64,000 bases of DNA from Halobacteriales archaeon QS_8_69_26 (GTDB taxonomy: Archaea; Halobacteriota; Halobacteria; Halobacteriales; SW-7-71-33). The DNA is taken from contig PXRX01000028.1 in the NCBI GenBank assembly GCA_003023195.1, forward strand, positions 19,520-83,519, read 5' to 3'. Positions 14,240 to 19,916 of the stretch are shown here, one piece after another; the stretch's first letter is position 1; each line of letters opens with the position of its first letter. The translations under genes and the position numbers were made by a program. The notes beneath the pieces were generated by a model, which saw only the letters and a program-made list of their open reading frames with translations, was not told where the DNA came from and did not search any database.

Positions 14240-14336
14240 CGGTCCCCGTTGACGAGCCAGGGACAAAGGTTCACGGCCCGGGAGCGACCCGGCCGGTCAC
14301 CCGCCGACGGCAATGGCCGAATGGCACTCCGCCAGC

Positions 14337-14493
14337 AGGATCGGCCGAACCGGGATTCCACCGGAAGGATCGGCCGAACCGGGATTCCACCGGAAGGATC
14401 GGCCGAACCGGGACTTCGCCGGCAGGATCGGCCGGATCGGAGGTTCGACGGCAGGATCGGCCGGATCGGAGGTTCGACGGCGGGAGCGGCCGG
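14337..14493. repeat. 29-bp tandem repeat, five full units plus a partial sixth
   Basis: Units start at 14337, 14366, 14395, 14424, 14453 and 14482. Consensus AGGATCGGCCGRAYCGGRNNTTCNNCGGM, with two subtypes. Confidence 0.95.
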
Positions 14494-18070: not shown

Positions 18071-18985
18071 ATGCTCGATCGGTTGCTCGGGCGGGCGGGC
18101 CTGAAAGAGCGGATAGCGGAACTGGAGGCCGAACTCGCCGAGGCCCGCGAGGAGGTCGACCGCCTCGAGGACCGCCTGGACGCCGAGGCCGGGCGGCGGT
18201 CGGCGGCCCAGAGCGGCCGCCAGGAGGCCGAGCGACGGGCCAACCGCCTGGAGGACCGGGTCGCGGGCCTGGAGGGGGAGATAGAGCACCTCCGCGACCC
18301 GGGGACGGACCTGGAGTTCCGGGACACCGCGACGCTCTCGGGCGATCGAACCCGGGCGGTCCTGGACCGGCTCGCGAGCGTCGAGGCGGGACCGGAGGGG
18401 GCGCTGACCGCCGCGGTCGAGGACGACCTCCCGGCGGAGGTCGAGGACACCTTCGGCCGGCGGGCGCGACTGGTCGCCGAGGCCGCGCCCTGCGTCGCCG
18501 TGACCGACGACACGGGGCTGGTCAGCGCGGCGCTGTCCGGCCCGGTCCGGCCCGACCCCTTCGTCGCGTGGGGCGAGGGGTTCGACCTCGACCGGTCGAA
18601 CTACCTGCCGACGGGGTCGTTCACCCTGGCGCTGGTCAGGGCCGACCTGTTCGCGCTGGGGACCTACGAAGGGGACGAGCGCGTCGACTACCGCGGGTTC
18701 GACAGCCCCGTCGGCGGCGACCACTCGAAGGGCGGTTTCTCCCAGGCGCGGTTCGAGCGCCTGCGCGACGAACAGGTCGAGGCCCACCTCGATCGGTGCC
18801 GGGAGGCCCTCGACGACCGGGCGGTCGATCCCCTCTACCTCGTCGGGGACCGGGGCACCGTCGAGGCACTCGCCGACGAGTACGACCCGGCCGCGACCGA
18901 CGCCGTCGACGCCACCGGCGACCCGGAGGACGCCCTCGCGACCGCCTTCCGCTCGTTCTGGGCGAGCAAGCTCTACCTGATCTGA
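18071..18985 (+). CDS. Vms1/Ankzf1 (VLRF1) family peptidyl-tRNA hydrolase/release-factor homologue
   Basis: N-terminal coiled coil; eRF1-like region with GGDHSKGGFSQARFERLRDEQVEAHLDRCREAL (VLRF1 Gln-loop motif); LYLVGDRGTVEAL. Confidence 0.85.
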   Translation: MLDRLLGRAGLKERIAELEAELAEAREEVDRLEDRLDAEAGRRSAAQSGRQEAERRANRLEDRVAGLEGEIEHLRDPGTDLEFRDTATLSGDRTRAVLDRLASVEAGPEGALTAAVEDDLPAEVEDTFGRRARLVAEAAPCVAVTDDTGLVSAALSGPVRPDPFVAWGEGFDLDRSNYLPTGSFTLALVRADLFALGTYEGDERVDYRGFDSPVGGDHSKGGFSQARFERLRDEQVEAHLDRCREALDDRAVDPLYLVGDRGTVEALADEYDPAATDAVDATGDPEDALATAFRSFWASKLYLI

Positions 18986-19090: not shown

Positions 19091-19342
19091 ATGGAAGTGA
19101 CCGTCGAGGTCGCTGGCGAGGACACCCACCGGGTCGAGACCGACCCCGACGCGACCTACGCCGACCTGGTGCGGGCGGTCGACCTCAGCCCCCACGAGGT
19201 GTCGGTGCTGGTCGACGGCCGACCCGTCCCGGAGGACCAGCCCGTCGAGGCCGAATCCGTGACGGTCCTCCGGTTGATCAAGGGGGGTCGATCGCGGGAG
19301 CGACCGGTCGAGGGGCAGAGCGGTCGCGGCGGAACTGGTTAG
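19091..19342 (+). CDS. samp2: SAMP2-type ubiquitin-like modifier with a C-terminal extension
   Basis: MEVTVEVAGEDTHRVETDPDATYADLVRAVDLSPHEVSVLVDGRPVPEDQPVEAESVTVLRLIKGG followed by RSRERPVEGQSGRGGTG*. Confidence 0.88.
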   Translation: MEVTVEVAGEDTHRVETDPDATYADLVRAVDLSPHEVSVLVDGRPVPEDQPVEAESVTVLRLIKGGRSRERPVEGQSGRGGTG

Positions 19343-19367
19343 TATTCACCGACCCGTAGATCCAGCC

Positions 19368-19916
19368 ATGAGCCGGCACGAGGGGGACCCCGGGACGGGG
19401 ATCCCGTCGTTCGAGTTCGAACTCCCGAACGTCGGGGCGGGACCGGACACCCTGTCGCTGTCGGCGCTGGCGCGGGATCACTCCTTCGTCGTCCTGTTGC
19501 TCCAGCGCGACCACTACTGCATGAACTGCCGGGACCAGGTCCAGCGGGTGGCCGACCGGTACGGGGAGTTCCGGGCCCGGGACGCGGCGGTGGTCTCGGT
19601 GGTGCCCGAACCCCCCGAGCGCGTCCGGGAGTGGCACGAGCGGTACGACCTCCCCTACCCGCTGCTGGCCGACCCCGACGCCGCCGTCGGCGAGCGCTAC
19701 GACCAGCCCGTCCGGTTCGGGGTCCTCGGCGACGTCAGCGACTTCCTGGGGCGGATGCCCGAAGCCGTGGTGCTGGACGTCCGCGACCCCGAACGGGTCC
19801 GGACGCTGTACGTCCACCGCGGCACCTCGACGTTCGACAGGCCGGACGTCGACGACCTGCTGGACGTCATCGACGACGCCGGCGAGGCGGGGACCGGACC
19901 CGATCGGGACCGGTGA
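19368..19916 (+). CDS. Peroxiredoxin-like (AhpC/TSA) redoxin
   Basis: FVVLLLQRDHYCMNCRDQVQRVADRYGEFRARDAAVVSVVPEPPERVREW; thioredoxin-fold pattern with CxxC. Confidence 0.75.
   Translation: MSRHEGDPGTGIPSFEFELPNVGAGPDTLSLSALARDHSFVVLLLQRDHYCMNCRDQVQRVADRYGEFRARDAAVVSVVPEPPERVREWHERYDLPYPLLADPDAAVGERYDQPVRFGVLGDVSDFLGRMPEAVVLDVRDPERVRTLYVHRGTSTFDRPDVDDLLDVIDDAGEAGTGPDRDR

Follow-up and report, generated by a model that had tools for sequence, protein, structure and literature searches.

The SAMP2 gene in the stretch of DNA analysed here (64,000 nucleotides of Halobacteriales archaeon QS_8_69_26, below called the window) does not end at the diglycine but runs on for 17 codons. The explanation that we favor, with somewhat better than even confidence, is that it encodes a SAMP2 precursor that arose by loss of the stop codon and would be cut after Gly66 by a JAMM1-type protease, tails and fusions behind the diglycine being tolerated. 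The more interesting result lies beyond the window: haloarchaeal SAMP2 is probably often made as a precursor that the desampylase JAMM1 would cut after the diglycine, and several lineages encode it in one polyprotein together with a redox enzyme or an acetyltransferase.

The tailed SAMP2 gene of the window

The open reading frame at 19091-19342 on the plus strand comprises 83 codons followed by a TAG stop, and the C-terminal part of its product reads ...VTVLRLIKGGRSRERPVEGQSGRGGTG, that is, ...RLIKGG and then the tail RSRERPVEGQSGRGGTG (Table 1). By its matches to family profiles and structures, the protein can be taken as a clear SAMP2 orthologue: the NCBIfam SAMP2 equivalog NF041919 scored 117.7 bits (cut-off, 70) over residues 1-66 and PF21965 scored 108.1 bits (cut-off, 27; E 2.9e-31) over residues 1-63, and PDB entries 2l32 and 4hrs matched with E about 1e-26, the aligned part ending at or just past the diglycine. 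Together with the match to these structures, the AlphaFold2 model, with a core near pLDDT 90 and the order beta-beta-alpha-beta-beta-beta, predicts the beta-grasp fold; its confidence was low at residues 80-83 and very low at residues 65-68, the latter as would be expected for an exposed junction. A genome search found the window copy to be the sole SAMP2 gene of the source genome, a single draft with a completeness of 86.9%.

The preliminary description of this gene had pointed to the internal diglycine and the 17-residue tail, and both the translation and the family matches agree with it. Position 58, a Lys in Haloferax SAMP2, is occupied by Thr, and the protein has a single Lys, Lys64 in IKGG, as had also been described; Lys58 is absent from the SAMP2 of many relatives too, and its loss is ordinary within the family. 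The codon directly after GGT, at the usual site of the stop (19289-19291), is CGA, which is indeed the single T-to-C transition away from TGA that had been proposed.

Table 1. Features of the tailed SAMP2 gene and of the gene that follows it in the window
Feature	Position	Strand	Basis
SAMP2 beta-grasp domain, residues 1-66, ending in RLIKGG	19091..19288	+	PF21965, NF041919, PDB 2l32/4hrs; AlphaFold2 core
Gly65-Gly66 codons; expected cut after Gly66	19283..19288	+	GG in 135/135 sampled genomes; LRLIKGG invariant in aligned fusions
17-residue C-terminal tail RSRERPVEGQSGRGGTG, first codon CGA	19289..19339	+	Translation; non-coding-like composition, charge +2
Stop TAG of the SAMP2 reading frame	19340..19342	+	Sequence
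TATA-box-like TTAGTATT, with its centre about 26 nt ahead of the Prx ATG	19339..19346	+	Read from sequence
AhpC/TSA-family thioredoxin-fold redox protein (Prx)	19368..19916	+	PF00578, E 1.4e-17

The GC content by codon position is.82/.76/.65 in the tail versus.80/.39/.92 in the SAMP2 body (chance of a third-position GC as low as that of the tail, P = 0.001), and the charge is +2 versus -10. When the stop was read through in silico in the 90 genomes in which it directly follows the diglycine, the resulting extensions had a mean charge of +2.1 and a GC content of.66/.72/.69, and a quarter of the 90 were as short as or shorter than the window tail; other tails of 5-24 residues have a third-position GC of.90 and a negative charge. 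Because its GC content by codon position and its charge match those of the read-through sequences, the tail looks like spacer DNA reached by read-through, with non-coding sequence newly brought under translation, and this composition strengthens the stop-loss origin suggested earlier. The tail is known from one genome only, and a conserved functional tail in the source genome was judged unlikely, both codon-position composition and charge being against it. Most likely the window holds a nearly neutral stop loss tolerated thanks to trimming, and probably a recent one.

The ancestral stop after the diglycine would have been lost, for which TGA to CGA is the simplest route, and translation would then run on for 17 residues through the spacer and into the promoter region ahead of the next gene. 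A JAMM1-type desampylase would cut after Gly66, as in the removal of SAMPs from conjugates, and so expose the diglycine for UbaA. Residues encoded after the diglycine and a desampylase-type JAMM protein are found together in the source genome, the latter matching the desampylase equivalog NF041370 with 137.4 bits (cut-off, 130) and carrying the motif HSHPSGPARPSATD, and the genome also encodes a UbaA-type E1 (276 bits); the earlier view that a JAMM-type peptidase would be needed if the protein is used is supported by these findings. HvJAMM1 cuts a linear SAMP1-MoaE fusion precisely after Gly in vitro and function was restored in vivo (PMC4443979), and CsJAMM cuts the SAMP precursors of Caldiarchaeum subterraneum (PMC6043591). 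For CsRpn11, bulky residues beside the cut site can block processing (PMC6043591). We count it against the favored explanation that the window tail starts with Arg, most unique tails starting with Ser or Ala.

Prx in the window is of the family to which SAMP2 is fused in Halorussus and three further genera. There, one open frame covers both domains, whereas the window has two separate genes that are out of frame with each other. A gene of the Prx family lies within 250 nt downstream of samp2 in 17 of 134 sampled relatives, and a search by sequence gave no PDB match for the window Prx. From its position, TTAGTATT is possibly a leaderless promoter of Prx that overlaps the end of the tail; a promoter scan with the sigma-70 model, which does not apply to archaea, found nothing. 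In 62 of the 134 sampled genomes (e.g., L013, L028, and L253), the stop codon of samp2 shares bases with a potential start codon of the gene behind it (GTGA/ATGA), and this arrangement suggests that samp2 may be translationally coupled to Prx or GNAT. Directly upstream of samp2 is a gene for an acVLRF1/Vms1-like peptidyl-tRNA hydrolase (18071-18985, plus strand; PF18859, E 8.4e-33); a conserved link between the two was ruled out, with none of the 134 sampled relatives having it in the flanks searched. The window also holds a tandem array of about 5.5 copies of a 29-base unit at 14315-14492.

SAMP2 C-termini and fusions in the haloarchaea

Eighty named relatives were fetched and SAMP2 was gathered from 137 genomes drawn as a sample from the class, of which 135 were usable (134 relatives and the source genome). 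The diglycine is present in every one of these. The stop follows directly after it in 90, and the gene is extended in 45 (33%, a figure that takes no account of relatedness in a sample rich in genus g7, taken to be Halorubrum), which rules out the tail as a unique oddity. Extensions of 1-5 residues were found in 19 genomes, of 6-12 in 17, and of at least 13 in 5, and 4 were fused to Prx; the five long ones are that of the window (17), that of L152 (24), and three continuing into a GNAT-like domain, and 17 residues are at the long end of the range for unfused tails. Of the families labelled f1-f12, seven include extended genes, and most g7 genomes have tails of 5-11 residues. The only family relative of the window genome has a different and short SAMP2 end, GGGG-stop; in Haloferax marinum, a case that parallels the window, the end is GG-CGA-AGC-TGA, and most Haloferax species stop after the diglycine. 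Of 64 unique extensions, 43 start with Ser or Ala and 8 with Arg, the minority to which the window tail belongs, and Fisher tests on this residue ignore the relatedness of the genomes and are indicative only.

The assumption in the preliminary description that SAMPs always end in an exposed Gly-Gly was thus wrong for about one-third of the sampled haloarchaeal genomes, and several lineages have full fusions. Since about one-third of the sampled orthologues, like the window gene with its 17 residues beyond the diglycine, do not encode it at the C terminus, a C-terminal diglycine seems to define the mature SAMP2 and not the gene product.

Two irregular loci were seen in the survey. One genome of genus g56 has two equal-scoring SAMP2 matches on one contig (G267:C1:3326-3541 and G267:C1:3939603-3939818), which may be a true duplicate or come from duplication of a contig end. 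In Halonotius roseus, the samp2 stop is followed at once by another ...VRLIKGG-stop end in a different frame, a partial tandem duplication.

SAMP2 is in frame with an AhpC/TSA domain in six named Halorussus species (L015, L016, L026, L035, L037, and L064), and a search with the fused protein found four more genomes of that genus (L116, L117, L118, and L128) as well as genomes of the genera g60 (L123), g68 (L125), and g11 (L134, L135, and L138), which belong to another family. This brings the SAMP2-Prx fusions without an internal stop to fifteen genomes, ten of Halorussus and five of the other three genera; L127, also of the Halorussus genus, has an unfused SAMP2 with a two-residue tail. A second kind of fusion, in frame with a GNAT acetyltransferase domain, is found in L262, L280, and L283. 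Because the fusions span different species with different linkers and one of them (L026) sits in a complete chromosome, assembly error is no general explanation for them. In ten aligned fusions, LRLIKGG is invariant, and the stretch beyond it varies in length and sequence. There is no in-frame ATG, GTG, or TTG within the first 60 codons past the diglycine in L016, L026, L035, L117, L134, and L138, so the redox domain of these six would not easily be started separately. For a SAMP2-Prx fusion, the AlphaFold model reached a mean pLDDT of only 40.8, and we set it aside.

SAMP2 is present as a single copy in the fused genomes listed, and the machinery acting on it is retained: each of the six fused genomes tested for it has a UbaA-type E1, JAMM proteins turned up in every one of eight, and the NcsA tRNA-thiolation protein family in every one of eleven, with the source genome too having the latter two. 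With a single copy and with UbaA, JAMM, and NcsA retained, these genomes presumably still depend on a free diglycine end. Trimming would be the reason why tails, and even whole-protein fusions behind the diglycine, are tolerated and have repeatedly arisen in haloarchaea, and in Halorussus and the three other genera the same cut would release SAMP2 and the redox protein from one polyprotein. Our wider reading, to which we give slightly less than an even chance, is that haloarchaea have repeatedly formed ubiquitin-style polyproteins, SAMP2-Prx and SAMP2-GNAT, that JAMM1 would cut after the diglycine to give equal amounts of the two products and to couple the supply of the modifier to the oxidant response. 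The window would then be a related state, with neighboring genes, a tailed SAMP2, and one indel between it and a fusion.

Alternative explanations

A single miscalled base could create the window tail, and a sequencing or assembly error in this one incomplete draft might conceal either a true TGA with the usual diglycine end or, through a one-base indel, a SAMP2-Prx fusion. The stretch encoding the diglycine has six consecutive G; from the diglycine, the +1 frame stays open into the Prx frame, so that one indel would suffice for a fusion like that of Halorussus; and the non-coding composition of the tail would fit an error. However, the base in question is a plain C in mixed sequence, and extensions are common enough in relatives to make an error unnecessary, and we therefore regard this explanation as unlikely. 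A hidden fusion is possible but not favored: the +1 linker is only weakly coding (.77/.62/.62 versus about.6-.84/.52-.64/.84-.96 in real linkers), and Prx has an ATG start with a TATA-like box ahead of it. Loss of function, by which the diglycine would be permanently buried and SAMP2 would serve neither as a conjugate nor as a sulfur carrier, had been named earlier as an implication of the tail. The tail follows straight after the diglycine with a bulky Arg in first place and has no sign of selection, as this reading would have it, but the gene is the sole SAMP2 copy with core and IKGG intact, UbaA, NcsA, and the desampylase are all present in the genome, and whole genera with tails or fusions have kept the diglycine. 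With one-third of the sampled genomes extended and several lineages fused, the window case is not unique and loss of function becomes improbable.

It is highly improbable that the tail is functional, holding SAMP2 inactive until a regulated cut or targeting the protein. The short tails of other lineages and the fusion linkers do look coding and acidic, and the bias to Ser or Ala at the first residue is strong, as expected for a selected cut site, but the window tail is basic, has a non-coding composition, and starts with Arg, and the end in the only family relative is a different one. In the fused lineages, SAMP2 might instead remain joined to the redox protein as a permanent domain and be no modifier at all; this possibility rivals the general precursor claim and leaves the stop-loss reading for the window untouched. 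The conservation of the fusion in ten Halorussus genomes and that of a Ubl-Cgi121 fusion in Thaumarchaea (PMC2948915) speak for it; we nevertheless find it doubtful, as the genomes checked have no SAMP2 other than the fused one, NcsA and UbaA persist, and LRLIKGG is invariant at the junction, which a mere linker would not need. We therefore retain a SAMP2 precursor formed by stop loss as the preferred explanation for the window; of the earlier interpretation, the precursor with JAMM maturation and the stop loss are supported as likely, the universal diglycine end does not stand, and the loss of function has become less likely.

Relation to known systems and implications

Eukaryotic ubiquitin is made as ubiquitin-ribosomal protein fusions and as polyubiquitin with tail residues, with an invariant diglycine at the cut site. 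The SAMP2 case resembles this in that a modifier is made as a fused or tailed precursor with an invariant diglycine, but the eukaryotic precursors are processed mostly by cysteine DUBs and not by JAMM proteases, and their fusion partners are ribosomal proteins. Among the closest systems is SAMP2 of Haloferax volcanii (HVO_0202; PDB 2l32 and 4hrs), which is orthologous to that of the window in fold and sequence, shares IKGG, and likewise comes with UbaA, NcsA, and JAMM1; it stops at the diglycine, however, whereas the window gene has 17 more residues and its relatives have whole domains. In Caldiarchaeum subterraneum, the SAMP and CsUb precursors similarly carry residues after the diglycine of the Ubl and are matured by the JAMM-family proteins CsJAMM and CsRpn11 (PMC6043591). 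That archaeon is distant and cleavage has been reported for it (PMC6043591), while in haloarchaea we infer it, and the haloarchaeal extensions, unlike the Caldiarchaeum precursors, include complete downstream enzymes. Natural MoaD-MoaE fusions and SAMP1-MoaE also place the Ubl N-terminal to its partner and are cut after Gly (HvJAMM1/DRJAMM; PMC4443979, PMC8832034). In those cases the Ubl is joined to a subunit of its own enzyme, and the SAMP1-MoaE construct tested was engineered (PMC4443979, PMC8832034), whereas in haloarchaea SAMP2 is the Ubl and is joined to a redox protein or GNAT. In Thermococcales, a Ubl gene likewise lies beside a peroxide-related gene, but the partner is named as of the OcmC (OsmC-type) family and not AhpC/TSA, and the association is one of adjacency and not of fusion (PMC2948915).

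It is thus known that JAMM proteases cut Ubl precursors and fusions, and precursor maturation is known for eukaryotic ubiquitin and Caldiarchaeum. SAMPs have hitherto been described as ending in Gly-Gly as made, and in the literature outside subscription papers we found no report of SAMP2 tails or of SAMP2-Prx or SAMP2-GNAT fusions; natural SAMP2 precursors and polyproteins in haloarchaea appear to be unreported. The Halorussus fusions tie SAMP2 physically to a redox enzyme, which fits the oxidant sensitivity reported for samp2 mutants (PMC5587910), and they make precursor maturation directly testable in Haloferax. If one-third of haloarchaeal SAMP2 genes do encode precursors, maturation would be part of the simpler SAMP system as well, and JAMM1 would gain a maturation role beside deconjugation.
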